Shown here: one piece after another, positions 1,355 to 12,037 of the stretch
Position numbering within the stretch: position 1 is the first letter of the stretch
How the letters are laid out: the number at the start of each line of letters is the position of its first letter
Source: Rhodospirillaceae bacterium
GTDB lineage: Bacteria; Pseudomonadota; Alphaproteobacteria; UBA9219
Direction: 5' to 3'
Assembly (NCBI GenBank): GCA_003486725.1
Contig: DNGD01000092.1
Span: forward strand, 1 to 12,037
Length of the DNA stretch: 12,037 nucleotides
The notes under the pieces: generated by a model
Database searches by the model: none
Seen by the model: only the letters and a program-made list of their open reading frames with translations
Told to the model about the DNA's origin: nothing
Program-made: the position numbers and the translations under genes

Positions 1355-1550
1355 GAAGGGCACGACGAAAAATCAATTTGAACTAATTTTTAACGATTAT
1401 GAACGCAGACTGACCCCATGGTTTCCGGCGAAACCAGTTGTTCATGCAGCGATGCGCGAACAACAAATGCGTGTGTGGTACTCAAGGCGGGGTCGGGTTT
1501 GTTGTTTCTGTCCCGAAAAGAGGTTTCGTTTGTGGGGACTCTATGGCTGA
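1338..1550 (+). CDS. Doubtful small ORF overlapping the start of the giant gene
   Basis: A 70-codon frame starting at TTG, with AGGGG about ten bases upstream, ending at a TGA eight bases inside the giant gene. The product is basic and rich in Trp, Arg and Cys (VCCFCPEKRFRLWG near the end) and resembles nothing I recognise. If translated, its stop overlapping the next ATG would couple translation and could open the hairpin that covers that start codon. The composition is closer to a random frame than to a conserved protein, so treat it as a possible leader ORF only. Confidence 0.15.
   Translation: MIKTFWKGTTKNQFELIFNDYERRLTPWFPAKPVVHAAMREQQMRVWYSRRGRVCCFCPEKRFRLWGLYG
1437..1464. repeat. Inverted repeat upstream of the giant gene
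   Basis: GTTGTTC (1437-1443) and GAACAAC (1458-1464) are perfect inverted 7-mers separated by 14 bases. The spacing between half-site centres is 21 bases, two helical turns, which suits a dimeric regulator. It could equally be an RNA hairpin in the leader. Confidence 0.35.
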
Positions 1551-1571
1551 TTCCATAGAGCCGAAACAAAC
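1523..1571. promoter_or_regulatory. Long inverted repeat enclosing the start codon of the giant gene
   Basis: CTCTATGG (1539-1546) and CCATAGAG (1553-1560) form a perfect 8-bp stem with a 6-base loop. The ATG start (1543-1545) is inside the left arm. Outer arms can add GTTTCG (1523-1528) with CGAAAC (1562-1567), or GTTTGT (1528-1533) with ACAAAC (1566-1571). The weak Shine-Dalgarno GGGGA (1534-1538) sits in the interior bulge. In the mRNA this would hide the start codon. No T-run follows, so it is not a terminator. Confidence 0.6.
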
Positions 1572-4500
1572 AGAAAAGGGAAGGCTGTGCTTAATCAAAA
1601 AGCGCAATAAGAGCGTTTGCGCCCAGAACGGTCAAAACGAATCACCTCACATTCGTGAAAATTATTCCCGCGCGGGCTTTGCGATCGCGCCGATTCTGTA
1701 TCTTTTGACCTTGGCGGGCGTGGCCGGCGGCGTTTTGTTCAGCAGCTATAGCCAAGTTCTGCGCGGCAATATCAATGTCACCAACGCCAATACGACGAAA
1801 AACGACATTGCGGCGGCAGTCACGACCCTATCGGCAACGGCGGTGATGGGGGATGATGCCGAAACCCTTTGCCCTCCGGGCAGCAGCGACGTGGTGGGGG
1901 GAACCTGCGAGGCCGTTCCTCAAAAAATGACGTTGTTCGCGGATGTGCCGGTGGCGGATGCCGCGAAGTTGCCCATCGATTATACAATTGCTGATGACAC
2001 AGGAAACCCAGCAGAGGTTGGCGTCTTTGCGGCGGCGGCGGGCGTTAAACAGCTTGATCCGTGGGGCCATTATTATATTTATTGCCGTTGGCAGAAGAAA
2101 AACATTCCGGCAGAGGTGGCTCAGCCCGCGATGGCCATCATCTCTGCTGGTGCCAATGCCACGCTTGAAACAGAATGCGGTGATGCGACGCCACAAGGCG
2201 ATGACCAAATCAATGTTATCACGGTCGGGACGGCCATTAACCGCGCCGCTGTTTGGCAGCAAACGGCAACGGGCGCTGTATATGGATCCCCAGACACAAA
2301 AATCATCGTATCGCCTGAGGGTGTGATCACGGCGTGGGGGTTGGTTATCAACGCCCCCGGTACGATTGAAGCGCAAACACTTATTGTTGATACGGCAACC
2401 TTTGACCATTTAAATCTGACAAACCCGCTGCCGGTTGAAAGCGGCGGTACGGCCGCCATCACCGCGACGGGCGCGCGCATCAATTTGGGATCGGGCGCGG
2501 TCGGTGATGCCGTCTTTGTGGCGGCGACGGCAACAGCGGGACGCAACGCCCTCGGCGGCACGGCGCTGGGCCAATATCTGTTTGCGACGACGACTTTGAT
2601 TGCCGATACGGCCAGTGCAGTGCGCCTCGATCTTCTGGGGGCCAGCGCTGTCGGTAATTCGTTGTTTGTGGCCGGAACCGCCGCAGATGCCCGCACTGTG
2701 TTGGGCGCGACCGCGATGGGCGATTATTTGTTCAGCTCCAGCGCCTATGTTGCCGCGACGGCGTCGGATGTCAGAACTACGTTGCTGGGGGCGGGGGCCG
2801 TTGGCGATGCGGTGTTTATGTCTGCCAGCACGGATACCGCGCTTACCGCGCTGGGCGGAACCGCTGTCGGCAAAGGTGTTTTCACCGCGGCGACGGCCAC
2901 AGCAGCGCGCACGACGCTCGGTGGCGGCGCGGTGGGTAGTCCGCTATTTACAGCACCCGACCAGCCGACGGCGTGGTCTATCTTGGGGTTGGTCGGCGGA
3001 ACGGGCACGCTGGATGTCAGTATTTCCGGCAGCGTCGATGCCTCGCAAATAACCGGCACGCTCCCGATTGAACATGGTGGTACCAGCGCCGTTTCGGCCA
3101 GCGCCGCGCTTGATAATTTGTTTGGCAACGATTCAGTTCCCTCGACCGCCCTCAATTTAGGTCGTATTGCTGATGGCAGCATTCCTAGCGCCAAGATGAC
3201 GAGCGTGGTGACGGCGGGAATCTACAATCGGGTTGAGGTTGATGACGCTGGCCGCGTGATCGATGGAAGTCTCATTGTCATTGACAATGACAAAATCACT
3301 GATGGCGTGGGCGATTACATTATTGCCTCGGCCACGGATGGCGGGCGCTTGATCTTCTCGACTGCTAGCGCCGTGCGCATGGTACTGGACTCCATCGGCA
3401 ATCTTGGTATCGGTACGGAAGAGCCGGAAGAAAAATTGCATATCTTCGGCGGCAACGCACGCATTTCGGGCCCCTCGGATGGTTTCCGTGAATTGCAATT
3501 CGCAACCTCGACCAGCGCCAAACGCTGGGTCGTGGCGGCTGACGATGAAACGGAAACGGGATCGGGCGACAGCGGATCGGACTTCGTGATCCGCCGTTAT
3601 AACGATGCAGGCACGGTGCCCACGACGGCCCTAACGATCGATCGCGCGACGGGCAACGCACTGTTTGCCGGAAGCGTTGCGGCGACAGGCGGTTTTCTGG
3701 GTTACTTTACGGGCACGTTCGACGGCACCTATATCGGCACGATTTCGGGCGCCGTTTTGTTGGGCGCGGATTCTACACATGCCAACCCCCAACGCACAGG
3801 TGATATGACAACCGGCTTTTTCAGTGACGCCGCAGCGCAGGTTAGCGCGGCGATTTCTGGCACTGAGCGCCTGCGCATTACGGCAACCGGCATCACCGCT
3901 TTTGGTGGCATCGATACGGGCGCGATCACGAATGCGTATTATCTCGGCGGCACAAAAATCCTGCACCAACCCGCCAGCGATACGACGAGTATTGGGGTGG
4001 GCGGTGGTACCCTTGCGGCGCAGACGGCAACGAATTTAGGAAATATCGCGTTGGGTTTGGACGCGCTGTATACAAACCAAACAGGTGGCGGAAACACCGC
4101 CATAGGTTATCGGGCCCTGTACTATACAACAACGCGTATCAATACGGCTGTTGGGTATCAGGCGCTGGAGAACAACACAGAAGGCACAGGAAATGTTTCG
4201 GTTGGGACAAGCGCGCTGCGGGCTAATACCACGGGTGGCTTGAACACAGCCCTAGGTCTTTATTCTCTCTACACGAACCAAACAGGCAGTTACAATACAG
4301 CGGTCGGGTGGCGAGCCTTGTTTTATGCAGCAACTGGCTCGAACACCGCCGTTGGCTCTGCCGCGCTGCACGAAACCACAACAGGCACCTTTAACGCGGC
4401 CCTGGGTGTAGACGCGTTGCGGTTGAACACGACTGGGAGCAGAAACACGGCTGTTGGCACTGGTGCTGGTTATTCAAATGTAAGCGGCACGAACAACACG

Positions 4501-7500
4501 ATAATGGGTTATGAAGTTGCCCGCACCACCCTCACCACCGGCTCCAACAACATCCTGATTGGCACTTCATCGCTGGTGGATACGGCGACGGCGGGGCAGA
4601 GCAATCACCTGAATATCGGCAATACGATTTATGGCGATCTTGGTGCGGGGGCCGTGTCAATCGGCTCACCAACGCTGACGCCCGGCACCAGCCTCGATCT
4701 TTCGGCGCGCACCGACAGTTTGCGCATTCCTTACGGGACAACAGCGCAGCAGCCCGCCGGTCAAGAAGGCATGGTGCGTTACAATGAAGACATTGACAGC
4801 ATCGAAGTTTATCAAGGCGATCCGGCCTCTTGGTTCCCGTTGGTGTCTTCCGCGACGGCGGGCACCACCATGGATCTTGGCCCCGATGCCACGCATGCCT
4901 CGCCCTCGCGTCCCGATGACATCACAACGGGCTTGTACTCTGCCACCGCCAGCACGGTTTCGACTGCGATTTCGGGCACGGAGCGGTTGATCGTGACGAC
5001 GACGGGCACGACGACCACGGGCATCGTCAACCTTGCCGCCATCACCGACCACTTCGCCATTGCTACGGTCAGGGTTTTACATCAGCCCGCGAGCGACGCG
5101 ACATCAATCGGTGTGGGCAATGGTACCTTCACAACACACACTGCGGCGGGGCTAGGCAGTACAGCCGTTGGGTATCAGACACTACAAACAAACACAATCG
5201 GTGGCATTGGCGCTGGTGCGAAGAACACCGCGATAGGCTATCAAGCCTTGCTTTTAAACACGGGGTCGGGTTCTGCTGCCGGTTCTTATAACAACGCGAT
5301 CGGAAACACGGCGTTAGGCACGAACACAGCCACCGGCATCAATACGGGCAGCTATAACAACGCGATCGGAAGCGGCGCGATGAACACCAATACCGGCAAT
5401 GGCATGGCCGCCGGCAGTTATAACAACGCGATTGGTGCCGGTGCCATGTATGTTAACGAAGGCGCGGCGCCTGGTGCGGGCAGCTATAACAACGCGATTG
5501 GGTTTCGGGCTCTATACAAAAACACGGGCGCGGGAAACACCGTTATCGGCTCTTATGCTTTGGGCAAGACAACAGCGACCTATACGGGGTCGAACAACGT
5601 GGCCTTGGGATATGCTGTTGGCAGCACCACGCTTGTTTCAGGTTCATCCAACATCCTAATCGGCACGTCGGCGGCGGTGGACACACCAGCGGCGGGAACC
5701 AATGAATGGCTGAACATCGGCAACACGATTTACGGGGATTTGAGCAAGCGGAGCATCGCGCTAGGGGCTGGCGCTCTATCGGCAGTCACGACGGGCGCGG
5801 TTTTGGATATGGGTGGCGCGACGGGCGTGGCGCTTTCATCCATGATCCTGCCCAAGGATATCGAGGCCAACCGCCCCACGGTTCCTGTGGTGGGCATGGT
5901 GCGCTACAACACCACGTCGAACAGCGTTGAGTTCTATCAGGGCGGCACGCCCGGTTGGTATTCCCTTGCTGCGACAACAACGGCGGGCTCAAACACTTAT
6001 CTCGGCGCGGATGCCACGCACAATTCGCCTTCGCGCAGTGATGACATCACAACGGGTTTGTTCTCTGATACGGCCAGCACGGTTTCTATTGCGACCGCTG
6101 GAACCCAGCGTTTGATTGTCACCGCAACGGGCAGCGTCGGCATCGGCACCATAACGCCAGCGCAGGCGTTGGAGGTTTCTGGCGATATCAATCTTAGCGC
6201 CATCACGAACGCCTATCACATCGCCAACATCAAGGTTCTGCACCAACCAGCGAGCGATACGACGAGTATCGGGGTCGGCAGCGAAACCCTCTCGGCGCAA
6301 ACGGCGACGAACCTGCACAACACGGCGGTGGGCTACCGCTCATTGTACAATAACCAAACGGGCGCGCACAACACGGCGGTTGGGCACGAGGCGCTGTTTA
6401 GCACAACAACGGATAGCAATTCGGCGCTCGGGTATCAGGCGCTCCGAAGCACCACAGCAGGCACCCGCAATGTTGGTATCGGTTATATGGCTCTCTACAC
6501 TAATCAGGGGGGCAATTATAACACGGCGATGGGCTATCAAGCGCTGTATTATACAACGACAGGTTACAACACGGCGGTTGGTTATCGTGCGCTGTATAAC
6601 ACGACGACCAGCGTAGGTAATGTGGCTATGGGCTTCAGCGCCTTGCTTAACAACGTTACGGGAAGCAATAACGCTGCGTTTGGGTACGGTGCTCTTCTCA
6701 ACAATGCCTCGGGCTCTGGGAATGTGGCGCAGGGCTCTTACGCACTTTATGCAAACACATCGGGCTCAAACAACACGGCTGTCGGGTTTGAAGTTGGGCG
6801 CACCACTCTTGCCACCGGCTCCAACAACATCCTGATCGGCACCTCGTCGCTGGTGGATACGGCGACGGCGGGGCAGAGCAATCATCTGAATATCGGCAAT
6901 ACGATTTTTGGTGATCTGGGCGCGGGAACGGTGGGCATCGGCTCTGGTACCATTAATCCGGGCGTCAGTCTTGATATCTCTTCGCGCACTGATGCGATGC
7001 TGATCCCCAAAGGCACCGCGTTGCAGCCACCCGCCGGTATCCCTGGCATGGTGCGGTATAACACCGACATCGACAGTATCGAGGTCTACCAAGGCGCGCC
7101 CGCCGGATGGTTCACGCTGACATCGTCCACGACGGCGGGCAGCACGATGTATCTCGGCGCGGACGCGACGCACAACACGCCCTCGCGCAGCGATGATGTG
7201 ACGACCGGTTTGTTCTCTGCCACGGCCACCACAGTTTCAATTGCGACGGCAGGTGCCGAGCGCGTGCGCGTTGATGCTAATGGCAAGGTGAAATTAGGCG
7301 CGGGCGCGGTGACGGCGGGCGTGGCCCTGGATATGGCGTCGCACACAGATTCGATGCTCTTGCCAAAGGGAACGGTTGTACAGCGCCCCGCAGGCATCGT
7401 GGGCATGGTGCGGTATAACACCGAGACGGCGAGCGTCGAGTTCTATCAGGGCAGCACGCCGGGTTGGTATTCTCTTGGCACGACCGCAACGGCGGGCAGC

Positions 7501-10500
7501 ACGATGTTCCTCGGCGCCAATGCCACGAACACCTCTCCCTCGCGCAGTGACGACATTACGACCGGTTTGTTCTCTGCCACGGCCAGCACGGTTTCCATCG
7601 GAACCGCAGGAGTCCAGCGTCTGATCGTCACCGCGACGGGCAGCGTCGGCGTCGGCACCGCGACGCCCGCGCAGGCGTTGGAGATCAGCGGTTATATCAA
7701 TCTTACCGCCATCACGCATGCTTATCGCATTGCCAACGTCAAGGTACTGCATCAACCGGCGAGTGATACGACATCGATCGGCGTAGGGTCGGGATCATTG
7801 GCCGCGCAAACGGCGTCGAACCTTAATAATACGGCGATGGGCTATCAGGCGCTGACCACCAACCAGACGGGAGCCTATAGCACGGCCATCGGAACCCAAG
7901 CGCTGATGACGACGACGACCGGCTATAACACGGCTGTCGGCTATCGGGCTTTGTACGGGACAACAACGGGCATCTATAACACCGCCGTTGGTATGCAGGC
8001 GTTGCAGGGCAACACCGTGGGCGTCCACAATGTCGGCCTTGGCTATTACACACTGTTTGCCAACACAAGCGGAAGCTACAACACCGCCATCGGCAACCAT
8101 GCCTTGCGCAATACGACCGGCGGTTACAATACGGGCGTGGGCTATATGTCGCTCTATGCGAACACGAGCGGAGCAAACAACACGGCGATAGGATATGAGG
8201 TCGGTAAAACGACGCTCTCCACCGGCGCGCGCAATATTCTGATCGGCACCTCCTCATTGGTGGACACGCCAGCCGCCGGAACCAACGATTGGCTGAATAT
8301 CGGCAACACGATTTATGGCAATTTGAGTACGGGCCATGTCAGCATCGGGACAGGCGCCACGGGCGCGACCTATCCTTTGACCGTCGCCAAGCCAACGGCG
8401 CCGAATGATACTGCTATCCGCGTCGTTGATCTTCAAGGTGGCGCGGATGTGACTCTGGGGCCAATGCATTTGGCTTTGGGCGTGATCCCTTCCGCTGTTG
8501 CCGGAAATCGGTATGCATTTATCGGCGGTGGCGATGATATTGGTATGCGACCCTTGATTTTGAACACAAACGGGACGGGACAATACGGTACTGTCGGGAT
8601 CGGCGCAGCGACTGTGACGGCGGGAACATCGCTGGATATTTCGGCTCGGACGGACTCGATCATCGTGCCAAAGGGAACGATTGTCCAGCGCCCCACGGGT
8701 GTTGAAGGCATGATGCGCTACAACACCGAGACCGCAAGCGTCGAGTTCTATCAGGGAAGCACGCCGGACTGGGTCTCTCTGGCGGCTTCGGCGACGGCGG
8801 GATCAACGATCTACCTCGGCCCGGATGTTACCCACACGTCACCCTCGCGTAGTGTTGATGTGACGACAGGCCTCTTCAGCGATGTTGCAGCAACGGTCAA
8901 AACCGCCATTTCCGGCATCGAGCGCTTGATGGTCTCGGCAACAGGCATCAGCGTAAACGGCAACGTGAATGTTGCCACGCTTACGAACCATTACTTGATT
9001 GCTGGCACCAAGGTCTTGCATCAACCCGCGAGCGACACAACGTCGATCGGCTTGGGTGGTGGCTCTCTGGCGGCGCAGACGGCGACGAACCTTTATAACA
9101 CTGCGCTGGGTGGCGAATCGTTGACCTCCAACACCGGTGCAAACAACACGGCGGTCGGATTTACCGCTCTTTGGATGAACACGACAGGCACCGATAACAC
9201 GGCTTCAGGGCGATCCGCACTGGGCTGGAGTATGACGGGTGATCACAATACCGCCGTGGGCTCCAGCGCCATGCTTGGTGCCACCGCTACCGCCAATCGG
9301 TTGACCGGAAGCAGTAATACGGCTGTCGGTTCTGGTGCCTTGATCGCCGTTCAAACAACGGCAAATGCAAACACGGCGCTGGGTCGTCAGGCGGGGTATG
9401 CGCTTACCACGGGCGCGAGCAACCTTATCCTTGGCTATCAGGTCGGCTCGACGATGCTTGCGACAGGCAGCAGCAACATCCTGATCGGCACCAGCAATCT
9501 GGTGGATACCGCGACGGCGGGACAAAACAACTGGCTGAATATCGGCAATACGATCTATGGTAATCTGACAACCGGCAGTATCGCGCTCGGCGCGGCGGCG
9601 GTGACGGCGGGCGCATCGCTCGATATCTCGGCGCGGACAGACTCGATCATCGTGCCAAAGGGAACGATTGTACAGCGCCCCACAGGCGTTCCCGGCATGG
9701 TGCGGTACAACACCGAGACGGCGGCACTTGAAGTGTATCAAGGCAGCACGCCGGATTGGGTGGTGTTTGGTGCAACGGCAAGCAATGTTGGCACCTTGGG
9801 CACCTCGACCGCGACGGCCAGCCCGTATCGTACGGGTGAAGTTAATACCGGTCTGTTTAGTCCCGCCTCGGGTGTGGTGAGCGTGACCTCGTTGGGCACC
9901 GAGCGCCTACGCGTTGGTGCAAACGGCGCGGTGACGGTTGGTGCGGGCGCGGCCAGAGACGGTGTCGTCCTTGACCTCGTTGCTGGCACCGGCACGGCGC
10001 TGTCGTCCATGATCCTGCCGCAGGATACTCTTGAAAATCGTCCTACAGCGGGCATCGCGGGTATGCTGCGCTACAACACCTCCAACAACACCTTCGAAGG
10101 CTTTAACGGCACCGAATGGATAACGCTCAGCCCCACCACCGGCAGTATTATCGGCGAAGTGAAGGTTTGGCCGACTGAAACCGTGCCTGCCGGCTATCTG
10201 GAATGCCGAGGTCAGGCCGTGGACAGAGTGGCTTACGCTGATCTGTTCGCGGTGATCGGCACGACCTATGGTGTGGGCGACGGCTCCACGACCTTTAACC
10301 TGCCGGATTATCGCGGCGAGTTCCTGCGTGGCTGGGCCCATGGCACGACAAACGATCCGGATAAGGCGACGCGCACCAACAGCGGCGGCGGCGTCACGGG
10401 TGATCATGTCGGCACGAAACAAACGAGTGCGCTTGCGACGCATACCAATAGTGTCGATCCACCCGTCGCGTCATCGGATGTTGTGGCCGCACATGGTCAT

Positions 10501-12037
10501 ACGGTTGATCCGCCCGTGACGGCTGCGGTCGCGGCGGAGGCACACACCCATGCGGTTGATCCGCCCGTGACGGAGGCGGTCGCGGCCGCGGCGCACGTCC
10601 ATTCGGTTAACCCGCCCAGCACATCAGTCGTTGAGGCAGCCGCGCACACTCATTCGATTGATCCGCCCAGCACGGGAACAAACACGACGGGTGCCCATAC
10701 GCATACGTTGAACGGTGGCGTCACCATATCCGGCAGCTCGTTGGCAACAAGTGGAAGCAGAGGGGATACATCGGGCGTCGCAAATTCTGCCGGTAATCAT
10801 GCCCACGCCGTCGATATTGCGGCGTTTAACAGCGTCAGCGGCGGCGGCCATGGTCATACCGTCGATATTGCGGCATTCGACAGCGTAAGCGGTGGTGGGC
10901 ATGGCCACAATGTCGATATTCTCTCCTTTACCAGCAGCGGCGGCGGTGGTCATGGCCATAACGTGGACATCGCTTCCTTTGCCAGCGGCAATGCGGGTGG
11001 CCATGGCCACACCACGGATATCGCGGCCTTCAACAGCACCTATACAGGAAGCACCGAAACGCGCGCCCGTAACGTCAATGTGATGTTCATCATCAAGTAT
11101 CAGGAAGACGCGGCGGCGGCGGGTGGCGGCGGCACCTTGTCACCGCAAAACTTCTCGATCGCGGGCGATGCTGTTGCCTCGCCGGTCAGCTTTGACGGCA
11201 CCGCGCCCGTTGAGCTGTTTGCCACGGTTAGTAAAATTCAGGGCTATACAGTTGCCGACACCGAGCCAACGAATGGTCAAGCTCTTGTTTGGAACACCGC
11301 CAGCAGCCAGTGGGAACCAGGGACAGCCAGCGGTGCCAGCTTCTTTGGCGCGAACGCTTCGAATACCGCGCCCTCACGCAGCGATGACGTGACGACGGGT
11401 CTCTTCAGCAGCACGGCTTCGGTTATTCAAACCGCGATCGCGGGGACCGAGCGCCTGCGCGTCACGGCGACAGGGATCAGCGCAACCGGAAACGTCAATG
11501 TGGCCGCGATCACCAATTACTATGCGATTGCCGCGACCAAGATTTTATATCAACCCGCCAGTGATGCGGCCAGTATCGCCCTTGGCACGAATGCGGGGGC
11601 GTCGATTGCCTCTGGAACGAACAATACGGTTCTTGGTAGTGGCGTGGCCAGCACGACCTTGGAGAGCGGCAGCAACAACATTTTGATCGGCACAAGCAAC
11701 GCGGTGGATACGCCATCGACGAATACGTCGAACTGGTTGAACATCGGCAACACGATCTATGGCGATCTAAGCACGGGCAGCATCGCGATCGGTGCAGCGG
11801 CGGTGACAGACGAGGTCGCTCTGGATATGTCGGCCCGCACGGATTCGATGATCGTGCCAAAGGGTCTTGACGCGGGACGCCCCGCCTCGCCGGTTACCGG
11901 CATGATCCGCTACAACACGACGTCGGACACACTAGAAGTCTATCAGGGCACCACGCCGGATTGGGTCGCTTTGGGTGCAGGCGGCGGTAGCGGAACGAGT
12001 GAACTCGGTGCCTCGACGGCGACGGCCAGTCCCTACC
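1543..12037 (+). CDS. Giant mosaic fibre protein: pseudopilin-like head, tail-fibre/beta-roll rod, internal phage tail collar domain (3' end beyond window)
   Basis: At least 3,498 codons without a stop. Order by residue: charged leader 1-44; hydrophobic segment 46-67 following Gly45-Phe46; extracytoplasmic head to about 235 with Cys110, 122, 181 and 212, DPWG (172-175) and YYIYC (177-181); 22/28-residue repeats 317-482; a GGTSAVSASAALDNLFG tail-fibre motif; GIGTEEPEEKLHI and FVIRRYNDAG...ALTIDRATG motifs near 628-710; six NTAxGxxAL beta-roll modules (807-1033, 1179-1400, 1566-1792, 2069-2261, 2492-2675, 3335-3409); repeated TGLFS...TERL and GMVRYNT units; a collar domain from 2867. The 1543 ATG is preferred over 1444 because GGGGA precedes it and no ribosome binding site precedes 1444; the frame is closed by TGA at 1411. 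The role is inferred as a trimeric surface adhesin anchored through the inner membrane or a pilus-like fibre. Residue 5 after the putative cleavage is Pro rather than Glu, so prepilin processing is uncertain. Confidence 0.9.
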   Translation, partial: MADSIEPKQTEKGRLCLIKKRNKSVCAQNGQNESPHIRENYSRAGFAIAPILYLLTLAGVAGGVLFSSYSQVLRGNINVTNANTTKNDIAAAVTTLSATAVMGDDAETLCPPGSSDVVGGTCEAVPQKMTLFADVPVADAAKLPIDYTIADDTGNPAEVGVFAAAAGVKQLDPWGHYYIYCRWQKKNIPAEVAQPAMAIISAGANATLETECGDATPQGDDQINVITVGTAINRAAVWQQTATGAVYGSPDTKIIVSPEGVITAWGLVINAPGTIEAQTLIVDTATFDHLNLTNPLPVESGGTAAITATGARINLGSGAVGDAVFVAATATAGRNALGGTALGQYLFATTTLIADTASAVRLDLLGASAVGNSLFVAGTAADARTVLGATAMGDYLFSSSAYVAATASDVRTTLLGAGAVGDAVFMSASTDTALTALGGTAVGKGVFTAATATAARTTLGGGAVGSPLFTAPDQPTAWSILGLVGGTGTLDVSISGSVDASQITGTLPIEHGGTSAVSASAALDNLFGNDSVPSTALNLGRIADGSIPSAKMTSVVTAGIYNRVEVDDAGRVIDGSLIVIDNDKITDGVGDYIIASATDGGRLIFSTASAVRMVLDSIGNLGIGTEEPEEKLHIFGGNARISGPSDGFRELQFATSTSAKRWVVAADDETETGSGDSGSDFVIRRYNDAGTVPTTALTIDRATGNALFAGSVAATGGFLGYFTGTFDGTYIGTISGAVLLGADSTHANPQRTGDMTTGFFSDAAAQVSAAISGTERLRITATGITAFGGIDTGAITNAYYLGGTKILHQPASDTTSIGVGGGTLAAQTATNLGNIALGLDALYTNQTGGGNTAIGYRALYYTTTRINTAVGYQALENNTEGTGNVSVGTSALRANTTGGLNTALGLYSLYTNQTGSYNTAVGWRALFYAATGSNTAVGSAALHETTTGTFNAALGVDALRLNTTGSRNTAVGTGAGYSNVSGTNNTIMGYEVARTTLTTGSNNILIGTSSLVDTATAGQSNHLNIGNTIYGDLGAGAVSIGSPTLTPGTSLDLSARTDSLRIPYGTTAQQPAGQEGMVRYNEDIDSIEVYQGDPASWFPLVSSATAGTTMDLGPDATHASPSRPDDITTGLYSATASTVSTAISGTERLIVTTTGTTTTGIVNLAAITDHFAIATVRVLHQPASDATSIGVGNGTFTTHTAAGLGSTAVGYQTLQTNTIGGIGAGAKNTAIGYQALLLNTGSGSAAGSYNNAIGNTALGTNTATGINTGSYNNAIGSGAMNTNTGNGMAAGSYNNAIGAGAMYVNEGAAPGAGSYNNAIGFRALYKNTGAGNTVIGSYALGKTTATYTGSNNVALGYAVGSTTLVSGSSNILIGTSAAVDTPAAGTNEWLNIGNTIYGDLSKRSIALGAGALSAVTTGAVLDMGGATGVALSSMILPKDIEANRPTVPVVGMVRYNTTSNSVEFYQGGTPGWYSLAATTTAGSNTYLGADATHNSPSRSDDITTGLFSDTASTVSIATAGTQRLIVTATGSVGIGTITPAQALEVSGDINLSAITNAYHIANIKVLHQPASDTTSIGVGSETLSAQTATNLHNTAVGYRSLYNNQTGAHNTAVGHEALFSTTTDSNSALGYQALRSTTAGTRNVGIGYMALYTNQGGNYNTAMGYQALYYTTTGYNTAVGYRALYNTTTSVGNVAMGFSALLNNVTGSNNAAFGYGALLNNASGSGNVAQGSYALYANTSGSNNTAVGFEVGRTTLATGSNNILIGTSSLVDTATAGQSNHLNIGNTIFGDLGAGTVGIGSGTINPGVSLDISSRTDAMLIPKGTALQPPAGIPGMVRYNTDIDSIEVYQGAPAGWFTLTSSTTAGSTMYLGADATHNTPSRSDDVTTGLFSATATTVSIATAGAERVRVDANGKVKLGAGAVTAGVALDMASHTDSMLLPKGTVVQRPAGIVGMVRYNTETASVEFYQGSTPGWYSLGTTATAGSTMFLGANATNTSPSRSDDITTGLFSATASTVSIGTAGVQRLIVTATGSVGVGTATPAQALEISGYINLTAITHAYRIANVKVLHQPASDTTSIGVGSGSLAAQTASNLNNTAMGYQALTTNQTGAYSTAIGTQALMTTTTGYNTAVGYRALYGTTTGIYNTAVGMQALQGNTVGVHNVGLGYYTLFANTSGSYNTAIGNHALRNTTGGYNTGVGYMSLYANTSGANNTAIGYEVGKTTLSTGARNILIGTSSLVDTPAAGTNDWLNIGNTIYGNLSTGHVSIGTGATGATYPLTVAKPTAPNDTAIRVVDLQGGADVTLGPMHLALGVIPSAVAGNRYAFIGGGDDIGMRPLILNTNGTGQYGTVGIGAATVTAGTSLDISARTDSIIVPKGTIVQRPTGVEGMMRYNTETASVEFYQGSTPDWVSLAASATAGSTIYLGPDVTHTSPSRSVDVTTGLFSDVAATVKTAISGIERLMVSATGISVNGNVNVATLTNHYLIAGTKVLHQPASDTTSIGLGGGSLAAQTATNLYNTALGGESLTSNTGANNTAVGFTALWMNTTGTDNTASGRSALGWSMTGDHNTAVGSSAMLGATATANRLTGSSNTAVGSGALIAVQTTANANTALGRQAGYALTTGASNLILGYQVGSTMLATGSSNILIGTSNLVDTATAGQNNWLNIGNTIYGNLTTGSIALGAAAVTAGASLDISARTDSIIVPKGTIVQRPTGVPGMVRYNTETAALEVYQGSTPDWVVFGATASNVGTLGTSTATASPYRTGEVNTGLFSPASGVVSVTSLGTERLRVGANGAVTVGAGAARDGVVLDLVAGTGTALSSMILPQDTLENRPTAGIAGMLRYNTSNNTFEGFNGTEWITLSPTTGSIIGEVKVWPTETVPAGYLECRGQAVDRVAYADLFAVIGTTYGVGDGSTTFNLPDYRGEFLRGWAHGTTNDPDKATRTNSGGGVTGDHVGTKQTSALATHTNSVDPPVASSDVVAAHGHTVDPPVTAAVAAEAHTHAVDPPVTEAVAAAAHVHSVNPPSTSVVEAAAHTHSIDPPSTGTNTTGAHTHTLNGGVTISGSSLATSGSRGDTSGVANSAGNHAHAVDIAAFNSVSGGGHGHTVDIAAFDSVSGGGHGHNVDILSFTSSGGGGHGHNVDIASFASGNAGGHGHTTDIAAFNSTYTGSTETRARNVNVMFIIKYQEDAAAAGGGGTLSPQNFSIAGDAVASPVSFDGTAPVELFATVSKIQGYTVADTEPTNGQALVWNTASSQWEPGTASGASFFGANASNTAPSRSDDVTTGLFSSTASVIQTAIAGTERLRVTATGISATGNVNVAAITNYYAIAATKILYQPASDAASIALGTNAGASIASGTNNTVLGSGVASTTLESGSNNILIGTSNAVDTPSTNTSNWLNIGNTIYGDLSTGSIAIGAAAVTDEVALDMSARTDSMIVPKGLDAGRPASPVTGMIRYNTTSDTLEVYQGTTPDWVALGAGGGSGTSELGASTATASPY
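1675..2220 (+). other. Pseudopilin-like N-terminal domain of the giant protein (GspG-like)
   Basis: Residues 45-226. A Gly-Phe junction after a basic leader (Lys20, Lys21, Arg22 and Arg43 among others) is followed by about 22 hydrophobic residues, FAIAPILYLLTLAGVAGGVL. After roughly 105 residues comes DPWG-H-YYIYC, matching the DPWGNPYxY motif of the major pseudopilin GspG. Then comes MAIISAGAN...GDDQINVI, which aligns in order and spacing with the YSLGADG...ADI calcium-loop region of GspG. Four Cys residues could form two disulfides. Against canonical pilin processing: Pro at position 5 of the putative mature chain, and a leader of about 45 residues. It may be a divergent minor pilin fold kept as an anchor. 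Confidence 0.55.
2491..2988 (+). repeat. Seven imperfect 22/28-residue repeats, tail-fibre shaft
   Basis: Residues 317-482. Each unit has the form GxAVGDxLFxxxTAxxARxxLG. Lengths are 22, 28, 22, 28, 22, 22 and 22 residues; the longer units carry a six-residue insert after the Phe (for example ATTTLI). The motif is related to the GGTGATTAAGARTNLG segments common in phage tail fibres, and one such segment, ESGGTAAITATGARINLG, directly precedes the array. Probably an elongated trimeric shaft. Confidence 0.7.
3961..4641 (+). repeat. Beta-roll head module 1 (10 repeats plus cap)
   Basis: Residues 807-1033. It opens with LHQPASDTTSIGVG, runs through ten units of 16-18 residues with the pattern NTAxGxxALxxxTTGxx, and closes with the cap NILIGTSSLVDTA...LNIGNTIYGDL. 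The repeat matches YadA-like trimeric beta-roll heads as found in bacterial tail-fibre-domain proteins. Confidence 0.8.
5077..5742 (+). repeat. Beta-roll head module 2 (with 22-residue variant repeats)
   Basis: Residues 1179-1400, with the same opening and cap as module 1. About eight units, but the central ones are 22 residues long instead of 17, with Gly/Ala-rich extensions such as GSAAGSYN and GMAAGSYN. These would form longer loops protruding from the roll. Confidence 0.75.
5281..5501 (+). repeat. Four 66-bp tandem DNA repeats inside head module 2
   Basis: The core GG(C/T)(A/T)(G/C)(T/C)TATAACAACGCGAT recurs at 5281, 5347, 5413 and 5479, exactly 66 bases apart. The codons differ only at wobble-like positions within the core, while the interval between cores is diverged. 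This indicates expansion by slippage or unequal recombination followed by drift of the loop. Confidence 0.85.
6238..6918 (+). repeat. Beta-roll head module 3 (10 repeats plus cap)
   Basis: Residues 1566-1792, 227 residues, identical in length to module 1. The cap segments of the two are close at DNA level: CTGGTGGATACGGCGACGGC and the following 15 bases are identical, which suggests duplication or gene conversion. Confidence 0.8.
7141..7497 (+). repeat. Module unit lacking a beta-roll head
   Basis: Between head modules 3 and 4 there is an extra copy of the linker cassette: TGLFSATA...GAERVRV, then LDMASHTDSMLLPKG, GMVRYNTE (ATG at 7405) and FYQGSTPGWYSL, with no LHQPAS or NTAxG section. It reads as a module from which the head was lost, or a linker duplicated without it. 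Confidence 0.65.
7747..8325 (+). repeat. Beta-roll head module 4 (8 repeats plus cap)
   Basis: Residues 2069-2261, with the same opening (LHQPASDTTSIGVG) and cap (NILIGTSSLVDTPAAG, LNIGNTIYGNL) as the others. Units are 16-18 residues, two fewer than in modules 1 and 3. Confidence 0.8.
8341..8620 (+). other. Unique insert after head module 4
   Basis: Residues 2267-2359 contain YPLTVAKPTAPNDTAIRVVD and an otherwise unrepeated, more hydrophobic stretch (LALGVIPSAVAGNRYAFIGG) before the usual linker resumes. No counterpart follows the other heads. It resembles a small globular domain of the kind found between tail-fibre shafts; I cannot name a family. Confidence 0.45.
9016..9567 (+). repeat. Beta-roll head module 5 (about 7 repeats plus cap)
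   Basis: Residues 2492-2675. It has the same opening and cap but more irregular units, one with a longer loop (GATATANRLTGSS). The linker that follows shares about 32 identical bases with the one after module 4 (GACTCGATCATCGTGCCAAA onward, near 8653 and 9641). Confidence 0.75.
10141..10344 (+). other. Phage tail collar domain within the giant protein
   Basis: Residues 2867-2934: GEVKVWPTETVPAGYLECRG, then AYADLFAVIGTTYGVGDGST, TFNLPDYRGEFLRGW. This is the complete PF07484 signature, including the P-x-GYLxC-x-G and F-NLPDYRGEFLRGW elements. The matching C-terminal strand, ETRARNVNVMFIIKY, lies at about 11056-11100. In phages this domain sits at the distal tip of short tail fibres. Here it is internal, with further fibre modules after it. 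Confidence 0.88.
10441..11010 (+). repeat. His-x-His array on an exact 51-bp lattice in the collar insertion
   Basis: HxH pairs begin at 10492, 10543, 10594, 10645, 10696, 10798, 10849, 10900, 10951 and 11002, every 51 bases, with a degenerate HTN at 10441 and a TSG at the vacant lattice point 10747. Two repeat families share the register: AAHxHxVDPPVTxxVA in the first half and GHGHxVDIAAFxSxSGG in the second. HxH motifs of trimeric phage fibre tips (T4 gp37) coordinate metal ions along the axis, so ten metal sites per trimer are plausible. Confidence 0.88.
11545..11769 (+). repeat. Beta-roll head module 6, contracted
   Basis: Residues 3335-3409. It opens with LYQPASDAASIALG but has only one or two NTxLG units before the cap NILIGTSNAVDTP...LNIGNTIYGDL. 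It is the shortest of the six and lies after the collar domain. Confidence 0.75.

Follow-up and report, generated by a model that had tools for sequence, protein, structure and literature searches.

The analysed window (G000:C119:1-12037, the whole stretch of 12,037 nucleotides, from a draft genome of 1.65 Mb that is 79% complete) carries most of a giant fibre gene. We interpret its product, with a probability of roughly 55%, as a giant modular pilin with a phage-type trimeric fibre, which would act as an adhesin at the tip of the filament made by an order-specific type 4 machine. At the level of sequence, this reading draws on a family of conserved heads with a GspG-like profile match and an N-terminal motif shared with small pilin-like proteins, on a pilus-type machine encoded in most of the same genomes, and on a complete relative that has an S74 domain and two predicted membrane helices. 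The gene is a single stop-free frame that starts at an ATG at 1543 and runs off the 3′ end of the contig, and GGGGA at 1534-1538, ahead of this ATG, is a possible ribosome-binding site. The first-pass annotation had described one frame joining a Gly-Phe helix, a head with four cysteines, a tail-fibre rod and a phage collar, and all of these were found in the window between 1543 and 12036. The features are as follows.

1543..12036, plus strand: giant fibre gene, 3,498 codons from the ATG, 3′ end past the contig
1543..1677, plus strand: basic leader of 45 residues, the last of which is Gly45 (Gly in 29 of 29 heads)
1678..1740, plus strand: hydrophobic helix FAIAPILYLLTLAGVAGGVLF, with Pro at mature position 5; motif common to pilin-like proteins
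1678..2256, plus strand: conserved pilin/GspG-like head domain, residues 46-238 (homologues, alignment and profile comparison)
2056..2091, plus strand: DPWGHYYIYCRW motif, residues 172-183 (head alignment and profile comparison)
2143..2205, plus strand: SAGANATLETEC...GDD stretch, residues 201-221, at the place of the GspG SxGxDG..DD loop
2440..2982, plus strand: rod section 1, short LGxxxxGDxxFxAxTAxxAR-type repeats, residues ~300-480 (by eye; limits approximate)
4093..9342, plus strand: rod with 25 NTAVGxxAL-type repeats in blocks, residues 851-2600 (PHROG matches and repeat count)
10153..10326, plus strand: phage tail collar domain PF07484, residues 2871-2928 (Pfam Collar, E 6.6e-23)
10492..11010, plus strand: ten HxH motifs, residues 2984-3156, downstream of the collar, in 17-residue steps with one gap of 34

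The protein reads R-A-G-F-A-I-A-P-I-L-Y at the start of the head, and FAIAPILYLLTLAGVAGGVLF is its sole membrane-helix candidate. Following Gly45-Phe46 and this one hydrophobic helix, the head contains DPWGHYYIY (172-180), SAGAN (201-205) and GDDQ (219-222), with cysteines at positions 110, 122, 181 and 212. Beyond these four, the window's protein has cysteines only at 16 and 26 (leader) and at 2888 (collar). The rod matched virion and tail-spike families in PHROG (best E 3.8e-89). Modules of the forms SPSRSDDxTTGLFS and GMxRYN are set between the blocks of NTAVGxxAL-type repeats (rod residues 851-2600), and the rod starts again after the HxH motifs.

A protein search with the head (residues 1-300) recovered 24 homologues of 1,961-5,301 aa at 37-57% identity, so that the head is more than a product of chance; the count refers to scored candidates (the 2,251 sharing most words) and not to all sequences. 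A scan of named genomes for the head gave 19 loci, every one in a metagenome-assembled genome, with titles naming Alphaproteobacteria, Proteobacteria, Rhodospirillaceae or Micavibrio. NCBI places Micavibrio in Bdellovibrionales, which we think explains the “Bdellovibrionales” labels. Within the order to which the window's genome belongs, the head was found in 27 of 33 genomes (17 of the 21 of good quality), mostly in single copy. A class sample of 385 genomes taken from a larger group yielded head matches in eight, five of them within the order and three weak. Two of the weak matches (L059 and L061) also lie inside giant frames, of 5,041 and 4,765 aa. They come from another family of the class and differ in the helix (GNVFFTLFGAV and GNIFFTLFGAV), with the DPWG, SAGP and GDD stretches kept.

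Five residues, Gly45, Asp172, Cys181, Cys212 and Trp238, are invariant in all 29 aligned heads, and Pro173 (28 heads), Trp174 (27), Gly175 (28), Asp220 (27) and Asp221 (26) are present in most. The DPWG region, which the first-pass annotation had singled out, is therefore conserved in the homologues. Cys110 and Cys122 are jointly missing in six rows (L019, L020, L023, L027, L043 and L050), which suggests that they form a disulphide pair; three rows in which only one of the two is missing in the aligned columns (L051, L059 and L061) speak against it. Searched by itself, the head had no match at E 1 or better in Pfam, PHROGs or NCBIfam, and its profile had just two matches among PDB sequences (E 1.4 and 2). 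A precomputed Pfam accession, PF26696.1, is given for eight of the 25 proteins of the head search, P0001 among them; the local Pfam scan was without it.

Nine of the 24 homologues (P0010, P0011, P0013-P0016, P0018, P0019 and P0021) have a leader of 141-217 residues ahead of the membrane helix. Scans of two of these long leaders produced helix-turn-helix matches below threshold (E 0.0099 and 0.032). If such a leader is cut off, an N-terminal part of 141-217 residues would be freed into the cytoplasm.

Upstream of the fibre gene are a phasin and, on the minus strand, part of a D-alanyl-D-alanine carboxypeptidase. The stretch just 5′ of the gene, at 1146-1264, is strongly structured and has a terminator-like hairpin at its end. 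The folding energy computed for positions 1140-1270 is -55.1 kcal/mol (z -4.27), a value reached by none of 200 shuffles. Rfam gave matches only below gathering score over positions 1000-1660, and an exact 15-mer of the hairpin stretch was found at one locus among 176, L029, and this is the position of the stretch itself.

That the gene encodes a prophage or phage tail fibre would agree with the matches of a rod piece to 89, and of a collar piece to 460, of 50,697 phage records. The head, however, had no match in these 50,697 phage records, in 72,556 plasmid records or in IMG/VR viral contigs, and most head-bearing genomes have one copy of it. No virion genes were found around the fibre: the neighbours in the window are the carboxypeptidase and the phasin, and neighbours recur across loci and genomes. 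A prophage origin was rejected on account of these recurring neighbours and the absence of the head from phage records, and a viral fibre is barely credible as an explanation.

The proposal that the head is GspG-like or pilin-like is supported by profile comparison. The soluble domain of the head was aligned with 40 GspG proteins in hhalign, using a profile of 27 of the 29 rows from which the helix had been removed and the two most distant rows, L059 and L061, left out. This gave a score of 45.9 and a probability of 93.4 over 32 columns, which cover DPWG..Y and SAGxxG. In 300 column shuffles the maximum was 28.9 and the mean 12.6, and the reversed profile scored 10.3. As the match is local, we claim that the head shares a related segment with GspG, and do not claim the fold as proven. 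The DD loop of GspG binds metal. The SAGANATLETEC...GDD stretch of the head lies at the place of this loop, and metal binding by the head is putative.

Sequence criteria for type IV pilins were applied to the same heads. The Gly that precedes the hydrophobic helix, at the prepilin peptidase site, is present in 29 of 29 heads, and the residue after it (+1) is Phe in 27. None of the 29 has Glu at mature position 5, which is Pro in 26, Thr in two and Ala in one. Pfam returned no pilin family for the 29 heads or the window's protein, nor did NCBIfam for the latter, and the N_methyl/GFxxxE family signature is absent from the heads (Pfam) and from the window's protein (Pfam and NCBIfam). T2SSG (PF08334, the GspG family) was the family matched by most heads, yet only three of the 29 matched it, weakly (best E 0.17). 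Since neither Glu5 nor the family signature was found, we do not file the fibre as a proven type IV pilin.

A giant GspG of a type II secretion pseudopilus would account for the GspG-like profile match of the head. However, PF08334 was detected in only one of the 33 genomes of the order, which is not that of the window, whereas the head is present in 27. With a true GspG in a single genome, a type II secretion system is unlikely to anchor the fibre, so that this half of the machine suggested by the first-pass annotation is not supported, and identity of the fibre with GspG is very improbable.

The other half, a type IV pilus-like link, is supported: the N-terminus of the head resembles pilin-like proteins of an operon found in the same genomes. 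In G028 this operon encodes, in order, a secretin, an ASH/choice-of-anchor protein, an ATPase, a T2SSF platform protein, two proteins of 361 and 170 aa that match no family with confidence, and a protein of 219 aa. Secretin, T2SSE and T2SSF matches are above the family cut-offs, and the final 219-aa protein has S-A-G-I-A-I-G-P-I-L-F close to its start. Operon sizes and order are the same in G004 and G014. The copy in the window's genome (contig C95) runs from the ASH protein through the ATPase and platform to the motif protein and is cut by the contig at both ends, with the secretin end missing and the motif protein truncated. The operon ATPase was found in 29 of 33 genomes, at 70-93% identity to the copy in the window's genome. 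The conserved operon, with a terminal pilin-like gene lacking Glu5, was also observed at L070, L074, L077, L079 and L177. At L070 its proteins of ~360 and 170 aa had no confident family match and a classical Glu5 pilin adjoins the operon; no such pilin was seen beside it at L074 or L077.

A DNA pattern for the N-terminal motif was present in 32 of the 33 genomes of the order, and a backwards control in 0 of 33. The 73 hits, counted by hand from coordinates, comprised 62 ending in Phe and 11 ending in Tyr. All 11 Tyr-ending hits sit at head genes, so that, of the 27 genomes with a head, only 11 have one that fits the strict motif; heads missed by it read, for example, GFGVAPILY or GFMLAPLLY. 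Sixty-four distinct hits were translated, of which 60 end in Phe (59 GIAIGPILF and one GFAIGPILF) and four are heads. Class-wide, the pattern was found in 13 of 385 genomes, five of them in the order, and the control in two of 385. Among the eight class genomes with the motif outside the order, G132 had nine hits, small-protein-like among those listed. The single hits in G207 and G302, which read like transporters, and those at L116 and L119, in short frames, were set aside by eye as chance; this sorting left out L112, L117 and L118.

In 21 of the 29 genomes with the ATPase, again by hand count from coordinates, a motif hit lies 2.97-3.34 kb downstream of the ATPase on the same strand. In six of the remaining eight, a contig end interrupts the region or the ATPase frame is truncated. 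Checking by position, we found two motif-class proteins (GIALGPIIF) that the pattern had missed at the operon end in G025, and no motif-class protein there in G003. Motif-class proteins thus stand at the operon in 22 of 29 genomes, 21 by pattern and G025 by position. The small proteins with the motif form two classes, according to whether they are encoded at the operon or in other places. Aligned with these in hhalign, the head gave probabilities of 82.6 and 92.1, against 31.2 for six Glu5 pilins; these values are from single pairwise runs, the shuffle control being confined to the GspG comparison, and they are partly circular because the small proteins were picked by the same motif. An operon-class protein from contig C19 of the window's genome had 230 homologues at E <= 0.001 among the scored candidates, and none of the 120 of these that were listed carried a Pfam family.

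Head and operon do not coincide in every genome. Head, motif and ATPase all went undetected in G010 (99% complete), and G021 (98%) has neither head nor ATPase match, but two motif hits. The ATPase was found without the head in G019, G022, G023 and G024, and the head without the ATPase in G015 and G029 (~80% complete).

A prepilin peptidase and an assembly ATPase, which had been expected near the fibre gene, are both encoded in the window's genome, but the fibre gene is not beside the machine. Two peptidase A24 loci and seven T2SSE-family matches were found. The ATPases include one of PilB/GspE type with an MshE-related c-di-GMP motif (C181), a divergent one (C68), a Tad-like fragment (C244) and a fourth with a T2SSF partner (C95); apart from the c-di-GMP motif, the family scores on these four contigs are under the NCBIfam cut-offs. 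A PilT/DotB-like ATPase was seen on C132, with a similar match on C30. A pilus cluster in G028 (L068) has a PilN-like secretin and lies beside genes that looked conjugation-like.

Another pilus machine of this genome, whether MSHA-like, R64-like or Tad-like, could instead use the fibre as its tip or as a minor subunit. The ATPases on C181, C68 and C244 provide candidates, clusters in relatives that presumably correspond to C181 and C68 encode secretins resembling MshL and PilN (each scoring below cut-off), and a 428-aa pilin-S74 protein of this genome has a classical Glu5 N-terminus. We regard this as improbable, given that the head lacks Glu5 and that in 22 of 29 genomes the proteins it resembles sit at the operon of the C95 type.

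The helix may alternatively be an uncleaved signal anchor that fixes the head in the inner membrane with no pilus involved, like the MAT adhesins of Bdellovibrio, the fibre either reaching the surface or remaining periplasmic. Such an anchor would suit a head without pilin signature or Glu5 and a fibre gene located away from the operon. It would also suit the leaders of 141-217 residues in nine of 24 homologues, which look like cytoplasmic domains, two having the sub-threshold helix-turn-helix matches. However, the motif common to the operon's pilin-like proteins and the GspG-like soluble domain would then be a coincidence, and MATs begin with a signal peptide and a conserved beta-rich domain of ~130 aa (PMC10769870). 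We consider a signal anchor unlikely.

The 3′ end of the window's gene lies beyond the contig, and the far end was therefore examined in relatives. An S74-type motif, S-[DS]-x-R-x-K, is present in the last 200 residues of 14 of the 24 homologues, in agreement with the S74 peptidase chaperone anticipated by the first-pass annotation at the 3′ end. A hydrophobic helix follows the motif in five of these 14 and is absent in the other nine, so that a second tether is not general. A single frame of 9,791 aa belonging to the head family was seen in a 1.83-Mb contig, without gaps or stops (G002:C1:607480-636852; L169-L170). Its only helix-like segments are at residues 28 and 9762, and an S74 domain (E 1.3e-15) lies ahead of the second of these and a basic tail behind it. 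Basic residues precede the first helix and follow the second, an arrangement that would place both ends of this fibre in the cytoplasm and the fibre itself in the periplasm. We infer that S74 would work here from the membrane.

The sole S74 match in the window's assembly is on C54 (L081:2048-3331), in a separate 428-aa protein that begins like a classical Glu5 pilin and ends in an S74 domain, N_methyl and S74 both being above cut-off. It was rejected as the missing 3′ end of the fibre gene because its frame has a pilin N-terminus of its own. In G008 (L173:2-3504) the giant frame stops and an overlapping frame in another phase has the S74 motif, which represents a break or an assembly error. 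Directly downstream of the giant gene at L172, L174 and L175 there are more fibre-like genes, with apparent Sec signals by eye.

If the fibre is a giant modular pilin carried at a pilus tip, as we prefer, the helix starting at residue 46 would insert while the leader stayed in the cytoplasm. The second helix behind S74, seen in some complete relatives, would anchor the far end, leaving the whole fibre as a periplasmic loop. Three chains would fold, and S74 would cleave itself and set the distal end free. The secretin/T2SSE ATPase/T2SSF platform operon would build a filament, and the Glu5-less head would dock at its tip and be pushed through the operon's secretin, after which the fibre would bind another cell or a surface. 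We infer, that is, prepilin cleavage, trimerisation, S74 self-cleavage in this family, the tip position, export and adhesion.

Large pilins that lack Glu5, GspK among them, are described as tip subunits (PMC5207764, PMC10191384), and CofB as a tip trimer (PMC10191384). By analogy, it is plausible that the fibre is trimeric and that its three pilin-like heads sit at the tip of a pilus. The missing Glu5 is in itself no marker of a tip position, as the operon's own pilin-like protein also lacks it. Several observations tell against the pilus-tip reading. CofB and TcpB tips do carry Glu5, the fibre gene lies away from the operon with housekeeping genes as the neighbours seen, and leaders have 141-217 residues in nine of 24 homologues compared with 13-30 in class IVb prepilins (PMC9045228). 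The fullest version of our reading is that this alphaproteobacterial order has its own type 4 filament machine with Pro5-class operonic subunits, fibres of up to ~9,800 residues, an inner-membrane tether at both ends, membrane-anchored S74 folding and release, exit through the secretin and a head at the pilus tip. We put it forward tentatively, at rather less than even odds.

The fibre may serve as a long adhesive probe that a pilus machine exposes. This would join phage tail-fibre adhesion to such a machine, on a scale larger than that of the modular pilins in the compared portions of the literature. It would provide a candidate for an adhesin common to the order, some members of which are labelled Micavibrio, a genus of epibiotic predators, and a simple route by which a very long trimeric fibre might be folded ahead of export. 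It would also indicate a pilus-type system in which the pilin-like subunit of the operon does without Glu5, a residue important for assembly in other systems.

The architecture had been said to look new, which holds in part. Pilin-S74 fusions are in print (PMC8179133), whereas the size, the Glu5-less N-terminal class with its machine, and the second membrane anchor after S74 appear to be new parts, none of them present in the consulted portions of the compared papers. No description of the giant fibre gene was found in the literature searched, which we do not take to mean that none has been published. The genome paper of Micavibrio ARL-13 reports type IV pili, and the words tail, giant and pseudopilin do not occur in its consulted text (PMC3189940).

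GspG (PF08334) has an N-terminal helix followed by DPWG..Y and SxGxDG in the same order as the head, which differs in its weak or missing family match, its lack of Glu5 and its four cysteines. Shufflon PilV resembles the fibre in being a minor pilin whose N-terminal part is constant and whose C-terminus is adhesive. In TP114, the constant part of PilV has 345 aa and the variable ends 69-113 residues (PMC9045228), in contrast to the one giant chromosomal fibre found here, and no shufflon family was among the Pfam matches of the window's protein. The Bdellovibrio MATs are also phage-type fibre proteins of a bacterium, and 13 of 21 have S74, a trimerisation chaperone that cuts itself off, as shown for the MAT Bd3182 (PMC10769870). 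They start with a signal peptide and an N-terminal beta-rich domain of ~130 aa, reported in the part of that paper compared here as having no PDB homologues (PMC10769870). The membrane helix and GspG-like head of the fibre are set apart from that domain by its description.

The closest known systems are pilin-headed. Modular pilins comprise more than 1,200 proteins in 264 architectures, including pilin (IPR012902) with S74 (IPR030392), and the most extreme multi-domain example has 860 residues (PMC8179133). Like the fibre, they join a small pilin-type N-terminal module to an unrelated functional module, and S74 is found in complete relatives of the fibre. Unlike them, the fibre has no N_methyl signature and Pro in place of Glu at position 5, some members have a second membrane helix behind S74, and the family spans 1,961-9,791 aa. 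Lacking the signature, the giant fibre would escape a survey of modular pilins by N_methyl. The type IVb minor pilins CofB and TcpB resemble the fibre as large pilin-headed tip subunits, trimeric in CofB, but they have Glu5 and far smaller added domains (PMC5207764, PMC10191384), whereas the fibre adds thousands of phage-type residues to its head.
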